From positions 1 to 61,849 of the forward strand of contig NZ_JACJQY010000033.1 of the NCBI RefSeq assembly GCF_014696925.1: a stretch of DNA of 61,849 nt, in the 5' to 3' direction. The notes beneath the pieces are model-generated. The model was given only the letters and a program-made list of their open reading frames with translations. It had not been told where the DNA came from and searched no databases. The translations under genes were made by a program, and so were the position numbers. Shown in pieces: positions 41,761 through 47,464 of the stretch (positions are counted from its first letter, which is position 1; each line of letters opens with the position of its first letter). The stretch comes from Phormidium tenue FACHB-1050. GTDB lineage: Bacteria; Cyanobacteriota; Cyanobacteriia; Pseudanabaenales; Pseudanabaenaceae.

Positions 41761-42708
41761 TTACCATTCCTGATAAAGTTTCTTCGCGTGAAGCATAATT
41801 TCTTCGTTGGGTAAGCGAATCTTAGCTGTCTGGCGTGGATAGGAAGTAGTGATCGCGTTTGAATCCTGCTCTACGATTGTTGCCACGGCACTCAAGATTG
41901 ATTGATGCAAAAGCGGCTGATATATCTTTCTCTTGAATCTCACATAGACCAGCACAAAGGTTTTGGTCTGGGTCGCAGTTTCAGGATAAAGAACATGTAC
42001 TTGCAAAAGCTCACCCCAAGGAAACTCAGTTCTAAAGGTAGTTAGAGATGGAAAAGCATACTCCAAAATCCCTGTGTAGATTTTGGGAGCAAGCAGAATT
42101 GCGGGATTGCGGCGAATATCAGCAAAGGTAACATCGGCGCGATCAAGTTCTTGGACAACCTTAGCCCAATAGCCATTCTGCTCAAACAAGGGAATGCGAT
42201 TTGCCTTAATACCAAATAACTCGCGATGCGTACCATTCTGATGGTTGTAATCATAGTTAATTAGCAGATTATGCAAAAACTCCCCTTGAATACTCGATTC
42301 TCCCGCAGCACCCAAAAAAGTCATGCGATCGCTCAAATTTTCGATTAAGTCAGGCACAGGAATTTTGGCTTCCATATTTCCGTAAGTCCAAATGCAGTCT
42401 CCTTTGACCTCTAGCTTTAAAGGAGTTGCGATCGGCTGAGCCGATTCTTTCCCAGCTTGATATAGCCGTCCCTGACCGTCAAATGCCAAGGCATGAAAAG
42501 GACAGACAAGGCGCTGTTCGCAAATCCAACCATTCGACAATGGAGCCTGCATATGAGGACAGATGTTATTAAGAGCAAATACTTCTCCCTGCTGATTTTG
42601 CCAGAGAACATAATCCTGACCATTCAGAGAAACTTTATAGGGTTTGTCAATTCCCAACATTGAGCGATGGGCAATCAACCAAGGTGCGCCAAGCAAGATC
42701 GGTGACAT
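41761..42708 (-). CDS. Rieske [2Fe-2S] ring-hydroxylating oxygenase
   Basis: 315 aa. Rieske ligands C50-x-H52 and C69-x2-H72 (CPHM...CPFH), in the order typical of oxygenase alpha subunits. The C-terminal catalytic part has NYDYNHQNGTHRELFG, with the His residues for the mononuclear iron. Resembles cyanobacterial Rieske oxygenases related to pheophorbide a oxygenase. The substrate is unknown and no dedicated reductase is next to it. Divergent to a TetR-type gene. Confidence 0.85.
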   Translation of the reverse strand: MSPILLGAPWLIAHRSMLGIDKPYKVSLNGQDYVLWQNQQGEVFALNNICPHMQAPLSNGWICEQRLVCPFHALAFDGQGRLYQAGKESAQPIATPLKLEVKGDCIWTYGNMEAKIPVPDLIENLSDRMTFLGAAGESSIQGEFLHNLLINYDYNHQNGTHRELFGIKANRIPLFEQNGYWAKVVQELDRADVTFADIRRNPAILLAPKIYTGILEYAFPSLTTFRTEFPWGELLQVHVLYPETATQTKTFVLVYVRFKRKIYQPLLHQSILSAVATIVEQDSNAITTSYPRQTAKIRLPNEEIMLHAKKLYQEW

Positions 42709-42730
42709 AGGTTAAAATGTGATTAATTAT

Positions 42731-42773
42731 TCATGTTTGATATTTAAAATACGACAGTTTTTTCATGTTTGTC
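42731..42773. promoter_or_regulatory. Possible TetR operator region
   Basis: Direct repeat TCATGTTTG at 42731-42739 and 42763-42771, plus a weak inverted repeat GACA (42753-42756)...TGTC (42770-42773). It lies in the short gap between the divergent Rieske and TetR genes. Confidence 0.3.
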
Positions 42774-42808
42774 AAGCATCTATTTCGAGGATATTTTTTT
42801 AGCAACCT

Positions 42809-43597
42809 ATGACCGAATCACCGCAACTCAAAACACAACTTCGCCGCAAACCTCAACAAAAACGCAGCCAGCAAAGGGTTGAACAAATCTTAAAAGCCGC
42901 CGCAGAGGTGTTTGATGATCTTGGCTACGAAGCCGCCACAACGCATATGATTGCCGCAAGATCGGGGACGGCGATCGGTTCTCTGTACCAGTTCTTCCCC
43001 GATAAGCTCGCCATATTTCATTCCTTAGAGGCGCGTCACATGGAGCGCGTCATGGCGATTAATGGGGCGCTTTTGCAGTCTGCTGATCCGCAACGTCCAT
43101 TTGCCGAATTTATGGATCGGATGGTCGAGGCTCATGTTACTTATTTTCAAGACCCGATGCCCCGTGTCGTCTATCTTCAGTATTTTGTAGCGCCCCAAAT
43201 ATTTGTACTTTTTAATGAAACCTTTAACCAACAGTTAATTCAGCAGTATGGCGCTCTTTTGCAACGATGGAATCCAGAACTGGTGGCAGAAAAAAGTGAG
43301 CGCCTTGCGGAGACTGTTCACCATTGTTACAATGCTCTGCTACTGCAAGCCTTGAGAGGCGAAGAGAGCAAGCGACAGGCTCGTTATGAGGAACTCAAAT
43401 CTTTAGTGGTTGCGTACCTCACCCCCCATCTAGAGTCAACAGGAGGAAAAGTAATGAAAGTAATGAAATGTCTATACTGCCATTCCTCCCATTTATCTAA
43501 AAATGGGCATCGTCACAACAAGCAACGATATCTCTGCAAGGATTGCGGCAAACAGTTCTTAGAACGCGATCGCGAATGTAAAGACTCAGTTTCATAG
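42809..43597 (+). CDS. TetR-family regulator with a C-terminal zinc ribbon like that of IS1-type transposases
   Basis: 262 aa. Residues about 10-210 are TetR/AcrR: QRVEQILKAAAEVFDDLGYE, then TAIGSLYQFFPDKLAIFHSL. From Met216 there is a zinc ribbon, MKCLYCHSSHLSKNGHR then QRYLCKDCGKQF, almost identical in pattern to the N-terminus of IS1/IS1595 transposases (InsA). An ideal ribosome site AGGAGG (43441-43446) lies 7 nt before the ATG at 43454, so the 47-residue ribbon may also be made alone. No transposase catalytic part follows. Either an IS remnant fused to the regulator by chance, or a real fusion. Confidence 0.8.
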   Translation: MTESPQLKTQLRRKPQQKRSQQRVEQILKAAAEVFDDLGYEAATTHMIAARSGTAIGSLYQFFPDKLAIFHSLEARHMERVMAINGALLQSADPQRPFAEFMDRMVEAHVTYFQDPMPRVVYLQYFVAPQIFVLFNETFNQQLIQQYGALLQRWNPELVAEKSERLAETVHHCYNALLLQALRGEESKRQARYEELKSLVVAYLTPHLESTGGKVMKVMKCLYCHSSHLSKNGHRHNKQRYLCKDCGKQFLERDRECKDSVS

Positions 43598-43624
43598 AAT
43601 AATGAACAACCAATACTGCTATCC

Positions 43625-43882
43625 TCAACTGCCACCGATGCCATGCAAAACCAAACCAGCTAGAAAATGGGAGAGAATTGCATATTCTAAGCCCCAGTAC
43701 CAGTAAAGATAGCCAAAGGCTACGCCTAACGTGGAATTAAGTAAAATCGTGCGGATAATTACAATCGGTGTTAGTGTCCAGATGCTTGCGGCAACAGGTA
43801 AATGCGCGATCTCCAAGCCCGAAACCAGACCCGCCGCTAAGCCAATCATCAACATCCCCGCACAGAATCCAATAAAGGGCAA
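43625..43882 (-). pseudogene. C-terminal remnant of a CPBP-type intramembrane protease
   Basis: 85 aa, three hydrophobic helices. FGYLYWYWGLEYAILSHFL and AGLVLH match the last conserved motif of CPBP proteases (helix with H-F-x-x-x). The N-terminal EExxxR active-site motif is absent and sequence upstream of the ATG at 43882 does not continue the family. A truncated gene in a decayed stretch. Confidence 0.6.
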
Positions 43883-44557: not shown

Positions 44558-47464
44558 ATGGAATTAGGTGAATTTACACTTGGTATAATTACCAACCTGT
44601 TATCGAGCATAATTTACGATGGAATTAAATCTCAACCTTATTTTCAGCGCCGCAAGATTGAAAGACGAGTTGAGGATGCTACAGCCGAGATTGTTGAGCC
44701 TTTATTACCATTCCTTAAAAATGAGGGTATTTCAGAAGATAAACAACGTCGCCTAATTCAAACTTGTGTTGATGAATTAAGCCCGTTAGCGAAAAATCCT
44801 GAGTTGTTATTTCAAGGCTCTCTCAATGGACAAAAGATTTTTGAGGATTTGTATACTAATCGTGATTTGCCACAAGTGGTGGTTGAAGATGGATTGAAAG
44901 ATGTTTATACACTTTTATGTCCTCGTATTGCTACTCTTATCTGTAAAATACCTGCTGCCGTAAAAGACTGGGAAAATGAAGCTTGGTCTGAAAATTTTCG
45001 CCGTTTTGATGAGATTACAGATCAATTACGTACTCTCTTTCACAAAGTTGATGAACTCGCAACATCTTCCTCTCAAGATACAGATGCATTACTTACTCGT
45101 GTTAGACAGGTACTCGCACAAAAGATTAGATTCAATCTAGATCTTACAGGATTGAGGGGAGATAGTCCTAGCATAGGTAAATTTGATGATTTTTTTATTC
45201 ATCCTCAAATAATTCATCCTCAAATAAGAGAAGCAGTAAACGTTGTGGACAGTACAGATGAAAGTTTTAATCTGTTTACTTCTAGTGGTCAGAGAGCAAT
45301 TGTAATTGGTCAAGCAGGAGCAGGAAAATCAACTTGGGCAAAGTGGTTACAGAGAGAGGCTTTAAGTACTCGTTGGACTGGTCTTTGTATTCGCGTTGAG
45401 TTACGACGTTTTGGTAATGAACCTTTGTTATCACTGCATCAACTAGTTCAAGAGGCGGCAGGGCAGCACCTCGCCGATGAACTCACACCAGAGCGTATAG
45501 GAATATGGCTAAGAACAAGTAGAGTGGTTCTGATACTTGATGGTTTTGATGAAATCCGTCCGTGCGATCGAGATAGGATATGTGAATGGATTGTAGATCT
45601 AAATCCAGCATTGCAAAAATGTCCTTTTATAATTACATCCCGTTACCTAACTACTGATCATCTAGCACAATTTAGTGGAAGTTGGCATTCTTGGATTATA
45701 GAACCATTTGATACAGTAAGGATAATTGATTATATTCAACGTTGGTATGCACATATGCCTTTACTTGCAGAGGGTAGTCATACAGTTGAGGCTGAAGCAC
45801 TGGCTCAGAGTTGGCTAAGAGATCCTACGATTGGTCACCTTACAGGTAACCCACTTCTACTCTCAACTCTTTTAATGGTTCATCATTTAGATGGTAGTCT
45901 CCCTAATGGTAGATCGGCGTTGTATCAACGATATGTTTCAGGTATGCTTGGTTTATGGGATGATCGTCGAAAGGTAGCAGCAACAAGCATTTCACTTTCT
46001 TTAGATCAAAAGAAAGAAATCATGAGAGGCTTTGCTTTACAAATGTTTCTTCAACAAAAAGATCAGCTTGACGAGAATAATGCATTAGAGCTAATGCATG
46101 GATTACTTCAAAGGTTAAATATTTCTTTGCCAGAAGAAGAAGTTCTTGGAAGTCTAAGAGAGAGATCAGGATTGATTATTGGACCTGGTATTTATAGCTT
46201 TGTACACAAGACTGTTTTAGAATATTTAGTCTCTGAATCTATCTTGCAAGGCGATCAACGAGATGAATTTGGACGTAGAATAGATCGGCTTTCTCTACTT
46301 GAGCATCGCAATGATGATCGGTGGAATACTGTGACTTTTCTTTGGGCAGGACTTGCTCCAGTATCTGATGTAGAATCATTTATTGAAGCATGTATAGATG
46401 CTAGAGCACTGGATTTAGCCTGTGGGATTCTATACGATCAATATAGTAAATTTAAACTGGAAATACGTCGTCGATTATTACTTAGTACAATTTGTGTAGA
46501 GGATGATGATATATTTAATTCCAAGATTATCTTTCTGACATCATATATAAAGGAAGAACTTATAAACGATAAAGTAAGACTTGAATTATCCTCTTTCTCT
46601 CTCCGAAGTCTCACATCCTCATCTAGACCAATTATAATTCTTATGGTTTCTGCTGTAGAAGATGGAACACTAAATTGGTTAGATAATGTTTCAAGTAAAG
46701 GAAGCATGAGACATATTCTATGGATTGTTTGTGCAACGAGAATTAAAGATCTTGAAGTATGGGGAAATTGCATAGCAAATAGTCCAGCTTCAGATAATGA
46801 TATGGACTGTGCTTGGTCAAATTTTATTTTGCAGGCTGCTTTTACGACCATATTAAAAGGAGAGAATCCGACAATTGAATTAGAAGAGGTTATAATGATT
46901 TATCAATCTACACGTCCCCAATTCGTTTCACTGATTCCGATTGCACTAATCTCTACTGGGCTGAGTTTTGTACGATCAGTAAATAGTGCCTACCGTAATG
47001 ATATTTATGCTTATCTCACAAATATATTTGAAAAAATATTGCAAGTTTTACCTAATAGTAATAATGATCAAATCAACGAAAAACTTCTATTGGGCACACG
47101 TGAATGGAATCTACTTTCTCAACCTGGAACAATAACAACAAGTGTAGCTAGATTAACAGCACCAAGACGAAAAGTACCGAGTCGCCCCATACGTCCGACA
47201 GAACCTACAACTATGATAGAACCTACAACGAGATTAGTACTTCCACCTAGTCAAACCCTATCTACTAGTCAAACCCTACCCACAGATCTGCTGAAACGTT
47301 TCATAGAGACAGTAGAAGTATTGACAGAGAAAGGAAGACTAAAGAAAGATGCAACATATGAACGTGCTATAAATTTTGTTAATGAGTTGGTACAAATTAG
47401 AGAGTCTCTAGCAGTCAGTCAAACTGCAATAGAACCAACGACATCAATTTCCGACAATATTTAG
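44558..47464 (+). CDS. NACHT-domain NTPase, bacterial NLR-like defence protein
   Basis: 968 aa. NACHT: Walker A GQAGAGKST (251-259), Walker B LILDGFDE (D328...D331-E332), followed by WIVDLNPALQKCPFIITSRY (sensor Arg) and a winged-helix part near 470-560. The N-terminal ~230 residues are helical (QRRKIERRVEDATAEIVEPL...) and form an unassigned N-terminal domain. No TIR or nuclease motif is visible. The C-terminus has no leucine-rich or WD repeats; instead there is a Pro/Thr/Ser linker with short repeats (EPTT, SQTL) before a last helical segment. Known: bacterial NACHT proteins sense phage and trigger cell death. The effector here is unidentified. Confidence 0.85.
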   Translation: MELGEFTLGIITNLLSSIIYDGIKSQPYFQRRKIERRVEDATAEIVEPLLPFLKNEGISEDKQRRLIQTCVDELSPLAKNPELLFQGSLNGQKIFEDLYTNRDLPQVVVEDGLKDVYTLLCPRIATLICKIPAAVKDWENEAWSENFRRFDEITDQLRTLFHKVDELATSSSQDTDALLTRVRQVLAQKIRFNLDLTGLRGDSPSIGKFDDFFIHPQIIHPQIREAVNVVDSTDESFNLFTSSGQRAIVIGQAGAGKSTWAKWLQREALSTRWTGLCIRVELRRFGNEPLLSLHQLVQEAAGQHLADELTPERIGIWLRTSRVVLILDGFDEIRPCDRDRICEWIVDLNPALQKCPFIITSRYLTTDHLAQFSGSWHSWIIEPFDTVRIIDYIQRWYAHMPLLAEGSHTVEAEALAQSWLRDPTIGHLTGNPLLLSTLLMVHHLDGSLPNGRSALYQRYVSGMLGLWDDRRKVAATSISLSLDQKKEIMRGFALQMFLQQKDQLDENNALELMHGLLQRLNISLPEEEVLGSLRERSGLIIGPGIYSFVHKTVLEYLVSESILQGDQRDEFGRRIDRLSLLEHRNDDRWNTVTFLWAGLAPVSDVESFIEACIDARALDLACGILYDQYSKFKLEIRRRLLLSTICVEDDDIFNSKIIFLTSYIKEELINDKVRLELSSFSLRSLTSSSRPIIILMVSAVEDGTLNWLDNVSSKGSMRHILWIVCATRIKDLEVWGNCIANSPASDNDMDCAWSNFILQAAFTTILKGENPTIELEEVIMIYQSTRPQFVSLIPIALISTGLSFVRSVNSAYRNDIYAYLTNIFEKILQVLPNSNNDQINEKLLLGTREWNLLSQPGTITTSVARLTAPRRKVPSRPIRPTEPTTMIEPTTRLVLPPSQTLSTSQTLPTDLLKRFIETVEVLTEKGRLKKDATYERAINFVNELVQIRESLAVSQTAIEPTTSISDNI

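Follow-up and report, generated by a model that had tools for sequence, protein, structure and literature searches.

A TetR-type regulator fused to an IS1-type zinc ribbon in cyanobacteria and a nucleotide-conserved element at the joint

The fusion gene and its surroundings

The window, i.e., the whole stretch of 61,849 nucleotides from Phormidium tenue FACHB-1050 that was analysed, is a complete contig of this genome and carries a single ORF in which a TetR regulator continues in frame into a zinc ribbon of the IS1/InsA type (Table 1). The initial annotation had described this fusion from the letters, and Pfam and NCBIfam profile matches bear it out. The nearest named relatives of the genome are Pseudanabaena. 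Both TetR domains, TetR_N and TetR_C_15, were matched above their cut-offs. The ribbon matched the NCBIfam model IS1_IS1595_Zn (NF050000) at 2.2e-13, with 50.5 bits against a cut-off of 28, and the Pfam InsA ribbon model below threshold (0.57 for the whole protein, 0.047 for the ribbon alone). All four ribbon cysteines of the search pattern used are present in the window protein.

Table 1. Features of the TetR-ribbon locus in the window
Feature	Position	Strand	Basis
Divergent Rieske [2Fe-2S] oxygenase-like gene, a probable partner	41761..42708	-	Divergent at 31/39 long-flank ribbon loci
Conserved intergenic block with a candidate TetR operator	42730..42776	.	Upstream-region consensus
TetR-ribbon fusion ORF, 262 aa	42809..43597	+	ORF and domain matches
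TetR N-terminal HTH domain, residues 27-72	42887..43024	+	PF00440, 7.5e-12
TetR C-terminal ligand/dimer domain, residues 97-204	43097..43420	+	PF17918, 2.2e-17
AGGAGG, Shine-Dalgarno-like, before an internal Met	43441..43446	+	Conserved in close kin only (3/112)
GTAATGAAAGTAATG, nucleotide-conserved joint element coding VMKVM, residues 215-219	43451..43465	+	
IS1/InsA-type zinc ribbon CLYC...CKDC, residues 221-252	43469..43564	+	NCBIfam; pLDDT 81-87

An AlphaFold model of the fusion, built on five sequences, is weak overall (mean pLDDT 69.3, pTM 0.54). It places helices at residues 66-208, and the ribbon forms a well-scored block behind a low-confidence linker (pLDDT below 50 at 211-217). In a search of solved structures, the TetR part matched many entries; the ribbon matched eukaryotic fingers and ribosomal proteins only, which is taken as general finger likeness.

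The divergent Rieske gene is a usual companion of the fusion at the loci with long flanks. In the held-out set described below, it was found at 13 of 14 ribbon loci and at 13 of 14 loci of the winged-helix type (29 of the 61 genes checked). Clustering of the 39 ribbon loci yielded no conserved downstream gene. A consensus of 85 upstream regions shows the intergenic block to be conserved. One and the same palindrome scored best in only 4 of the 11 upstream regions scanned, and another one scored best in the window; as an operator palindrome, the block is no more than suggestive. Further downstream, the plus strand of the window (44558-47464) encodes a 968-aa NACHT protein (PF05729, 2.1e-14; NACHT N-terminal helical domain below threshold), possibly a defence-type NLR-like ATPase.

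Relatives and the origin of the ribbon

The TetR part was searched at the protein level in 388 genomes of the class, and 138 of them gave a match at E 1e-15 or better. Tails were classified at the 81 best places (E to about 1e-40): 64 carried a ribbon, spread over 61 genomes, 13 a winged-helix-like tail and 4 neither. These places and the gene L047 make up a first set of 82 distinct genes (65 ribbon, 13 winged-helix-like, 4 neither). The held-out set was drawn from 291 genomes of another order, searched at the protein level with no motif steering, and from a Nostoc sp. C052 plasmid gene; it comprises 61 new genes (42 ribbon, 15 winged-helix-like, 4 other). With five further genes and the winged-helix-type L185, the total is 149 distinct genes, of which 98 code for TetR and ribbon, 14 for TetR, ribbon and an IS1 HTH, 30 for a winged-helix-like tail and 7 for neither. 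The search for the fusion in other genomes, proposed with the initial annotation, recovered the same join in 112 of the 149 relatives (in frame in all 112 as a consequence of gene selection). The recurrence of the join in many other genomes rules out an assembly artefact. The ribbon-only form extends over 21 or more family-level groups within the class.

The winged-helix-like tail, with the signature SRRTLQRDLK, is present in 30 of the 149 genes (L067-L073, L082, L130, L137, L192-L194, L204-L213 and others); its label rests on sub-threshold matches (best 0.0014). Two unlike second DNA-binding modules thus seem, from the tail sequences, to have been put on one TetR core. In the tree, the winged-helix-type genes have ribbon-bearing genes to either side. 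Three genomes (G019, G102, G236) have two ribbon-bearing TetR genes each, and the copies of G019 belong to different clades. Plasmid-borne pairs of Rieske and TetR-ribbon genes also occur in cyanobacteria (L184, AP018275.1; L186, NZ_CP040276.1); in the Nostoc record, the TetR-ribbon ORF has no listed gene in the incomplete plasmid gene table. A search of viral contigs gave a single match, to a different protein.

An HTH is kept behind the ribbon in 14 of the 112 ribbon genes, of the type ...GYPPEIKQQCLALHQQGMSFRQIERQTGVSHNTVINWV. Against the NCBIfam IS1 transposase model (NF033558, 199 positions), the tail of L217 aligns over positions 1-81 at 2.9e-26 and that of L195 over positions 1-78 at 2.6e-24. 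Their scores of 92.6 and 86.3 bits lie slightly under the whole-protein cut-off of 100, as expected for half a protein. By these profile matches, the tail of the ribbon and HTH relatives is the DNA-binding half of InsA. In IS1 of E. coli, InsA is a repressor, and its zinc finger and HTH are both required to bind the IS ends (PMC12428005).

The initial annotation had suspected the capture of an IS end by a regulator. An IS1-type ribbon was indeed taken up, as the 14 relatives with ribbon and HTH indicate, but the spread over so many family-level groups argues against a recent or local event. From its distribution, the fusion is read here as a transposase DNA-binding module that was domesticated long ago. 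The window gene lacks the HTH behind the ribbon, as do 98 of the 112 ribbon genes. In the tree, which does not fix the root or the order of events, genes with ribbon and HTH stand near ribbon-only clades at several places. This placement tentatively suggests an early fusion with the whole InsA half and a later loss of the HTH. No convincing HTH remnants were detected behind the ribbon stop of the 98 ribbon-only genes; a weak match with an internal stop in G040 failed on reading. No frameshifted catalytic part follows either, as the ORF stops at 43597 and the plus strand has no further ORF of at least 60 aa before 44558.

The initial annotation had proposed a look for IS1-family termini near 43440 and 43600. 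Five ends taken from multi-copy cyanobacterial IS1 were tried at 43380-43750, and none was found beyond control level: the best reached 19 of 30 letters, as did 3 of 200 control windows, and the results of the other four were reached by 44-191 of 200. Repeats around the ribbon were limited to one direct repeat and one distant inverted pair, each of 9 nt. A TetR gene that stops short of the ribbon and has an IS inserted at that point, the case which the initial annotation had set against its own reading, was not seen as stated among the relatives. Seven of the 149 genes are without either tail, and no IS1 was present on the four 3' sides examined (L066, L133, L227, L238). L121 (G213:C215) is a second TetR-ribbon copy into which a transposase gene unlike IS1 has been inserted about 40 nt before the ribbon; the joint element and the ribbon behind it are intact.

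A nucleotide-conserved element at the joint

The joint of almost every ribbon-only gene reads GTA-ATG-NNN-GTA-ATG (VMxVM) and is conserved in nucleotides. With the genes chosen through the motif excluded, the two valine codons are GTA in 94 of 95 and 95 of 96 cases. In the first 65 ribbon genes, the corresponding counts are 62 of 63 and 63 of 64, and GTA makes up 298 of the 1200 valine codons of these genes overall. The held-out set has GTA in 31 of 31 cases at both positions. On a tree of 70 genes, 1 synonymous change was counted per joint valine codon versus 14-32 at 45 other fourfold columns, and the count repeated without the four motif-found genes gave the same result. The middle codon is variable (AAA, AAT, AAG, GAT, AGT, GAA, AAC), so the protein is free at that position, whereas the flanking letters are not.

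Adjacent bases are also biased. Where the codon preceding the first GTA ends in Y, the base is T in 51 of 52 cases. Isoleucine after the second methionine is coded by ATA in 37 genes, by ATT in 13 and by ATC in none; elsewhere, ATA accounts for 59 of 859 isoleucine codons. The same letters of the element are kept in genes of 41-64 % GC. As controls, the Rieske genes with 43 fourfold columns had no comparable column (best 0.77), and neither had 14 winged-helix-type genes with 28 columns (best 0.85). Judging by these codon counts, the joint element is under selection on its DNA or RNA letters, and the conserved stretch probably has a second job besides protein coding. The existence of the fusion and of the nucleotide constraint is firm; the mechanism is not. 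With two codons frozen across a class-wide sample and freely variable neighbours, the element is among the clearest examples of synonymous letters under selection to be had from a survey of this kind.

The full element is present in 93 of the 98 ribbon-only genes versus none of the 14 genes with ribbon and HTH. Three of the five ribbon-only genes lacking it retain one half, and the Rieske neighbour is present at three of the four element-less ribbon loci checked. In the genes with ribbon and HTH, 6 of the 7 valine codons remaining at the joint positions are still GTA. The association of element and HTH loss comes down to three independent pairs and is not significant (sign test, p 0.25-1).

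Several explanations for the element were tried and rejected. An overlapping reading frame does not account for it, as the open +1 and +2 frames upstream are mostly short, with medians of 11 and 18 codons. The exact 15-mer occurs at 51 places in the 388 genomes, 46 of them in a TetR-ribbon gene (one interrupted copy). The five places elsewhere compare with about four expected under equal base use, which leaves no room for a regulon-wide operator. GTAATGAAAGTAATG reads identically backwards, so that a reversed-pattern control equals the pattern itself and is uninformative. GTAATG or CATTAC is found upstream in part of the loci, mostly within the Rieske gene and with no codon excess, and a promoter copy of the element was discarded. 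Nor does it belong to a downstream gene, no such neighbour being conserved at the 39 ribbon loci. By eye only, the element shows a one-gap resemblance to inner parts of IS1 ends.

Possible roles of the element and known systems

The initial annotation had suggested that the ribbon may give the TetR regulator an extra DNA contact, a plausible idea that is also part of the mechanism proposed here. A TetR-type repressor would have been fused early in cyanobacterial evolution to the InsA DNA-binding half (zinc ribbon and HTH), of which most lineages, including that of the window, would now retain the ribbon only. The dimer most likely occupies the conserved intergenic block and keeps both its own gene and the Rieske gene repressed, and ligand binding would release it from the DNA. 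Two presumably zinc-binding ribbons on flexible linkers may supply added DNA contacts. GTAATG-NNN-GTAATG in the joint would be a cis element of the gene itself and, as a best guess, an operator-like site touched by the ribbons about 650-700 bp from the promoter block, leading to auto-control. As a whole explanation, a repressor with a captured InsA half and an operator-like intragenic element is given slightly less than an even chance.

Several observations stand against this explanation. The InsA finger acts jointly with an HTH which the window protein lacks; hence, DNA binding by the ribbon alone may be poor or absent. The half-sites of the element are direct repeats 9 nt apart, although a symmetric dimer would call for an inverted repeat. 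The distances from the promoter half-site to the element (652-704 nt in 62 genes) reveal no single helical phase. The ribbon genes that lack the full element, most of which kept the Rieske neighbour among the loci checked, and the differing best palindrome of the window also count against it. The narrower proposal of a fixed 15-20 nt site in the gene's own reading frame, located at the fusion seam and recognised by the ribbon of the product, is a rather unlikely one. If true, loss of the HTH would have tied the ribbon to the intragenic site, and domain and target would evolve as one piece of DNA. The question whether a captured domain reads a site in its own gene is testable.

The main rival is a role of the element in the mRNA, as an internal start or as the site of an RNA-binding protein, a small RNA or a nuclease, which would yield free ribbon or a dosed fusion. 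The initial annotation had proposed a free ribbon made from an internal start. The AGGAGG it reported does stand 7 nt upstream of the ATG at 43454, a good spacing, and by the letters such a product is possible. With AGGAG or GGAGG in the 18 nt preceding the methionine as the criterion, however, a ribosome site is present in only 3 of the 112 ribbon genes (three of the 70 outside the held-out set, none of the 42 within it), and the three carriers are all Pseudanabaena. As a conserved feature, the site is ruled out; since the window shares its AGGAGG with two close relatives only, a regulated free ribbon is unsupported by conservation. The element coincides with the start codon of InsA, as IS1 of the relatives begins with ATGAAAxACAATGAAATGTCC or close to it. 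Two ATGs are kept, TAATG precedes the second in nearly all ribbon-only genes, and the element is somewhat more open than the remaining mRNA (mean percentile 0.72, 70 genes). Yet 109 of the 112 genes are without a Shine-Dalgarno sequence and the upstream bases are unconserved, an internal start needs the ATG and not the preceding GTA, and a separate pair of TetR and ribbon was not noticed among the 149 genes. A role in the mRNA is possible but doubtful, and the intragenic operator-like site touched by the ribbon is favoured over it, both being candidates.

Slow codons at the domain border could also let TetR fold ahead of the ribbon. The element does lie within the low-confidence linker, and ATA, a rare isoleucine codon here, is its usual next codon. 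GTA, however, is not rare in these genes and other rare codons would do. The fixed T before the first GTA and the letters unchanged between 41 and 64 % GC also argue against translation speed, which is an improbable explanation. Still less probable is that a young ribbon end exchanged between genes by recombination accounts for the conserved letters. The position of ribbon-bearing genes on either side of the winged-helix-type genes would fit such an exchange, but the synonymous sites of the ribbon right after the element are as diverged as those of other parts of the gene; the top codon reaches 42 % at Gly233 and 31 % at Ser230. That a recent IS1 insertion gave TetR its ribbon and the fusion is a functionless accident has next to no probability left despite the IS1-type ribbon and the IS1 copies common in these genomes, as it is refuted by relatives from 21 or more family-level groups, which carry the same in-frame fusion and have kept the cysteines, and as no IS1 ends were found at 43380-43750.

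Among the papers listed by literature searches, none containing the 15-mer was found, and no report of this TetR-ribbon fusion was recognised, judging by titles and abstract openings. The favoured repressor with its captured InsA half resembles TetR/AcrR repressors with TetR_N and TetR_C_15 domains in its N-terminal HTH, its all-helical C-terminal domain and its divergent target gene with a conserved intergenic block. Unlike them, it bears a C-terminal IS1-type zinc ribbon on a linker and a nucleotide-conserved element in that linker. With the N-terminal half of InsA and the IS1 transposase (NF033558, NF050000), it has in common the four-cysteine ribbon and, in 14 relatives, the collinear order of ribbon and HTH. 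In contrast to InsA and IS1, the fusion has no catalytic part, frameshift partner or IS ends and sits behind TetR, and the window form is without the HTH. Transposase DNA-binding domains have been domesticated in host regulators as a general class, in which a transposon module serves a host transcription factor. Unlike this class in general, the present fusion is bacterial, IS1-derived and joined to TetR, and intermediate forms are still present. The series of TetR alone, TetR with InsA ribbon and HTH, TetR with ribbon and TetR with another tail illustrates how a bacterial regulator acquires a transposase DNA-binding module.
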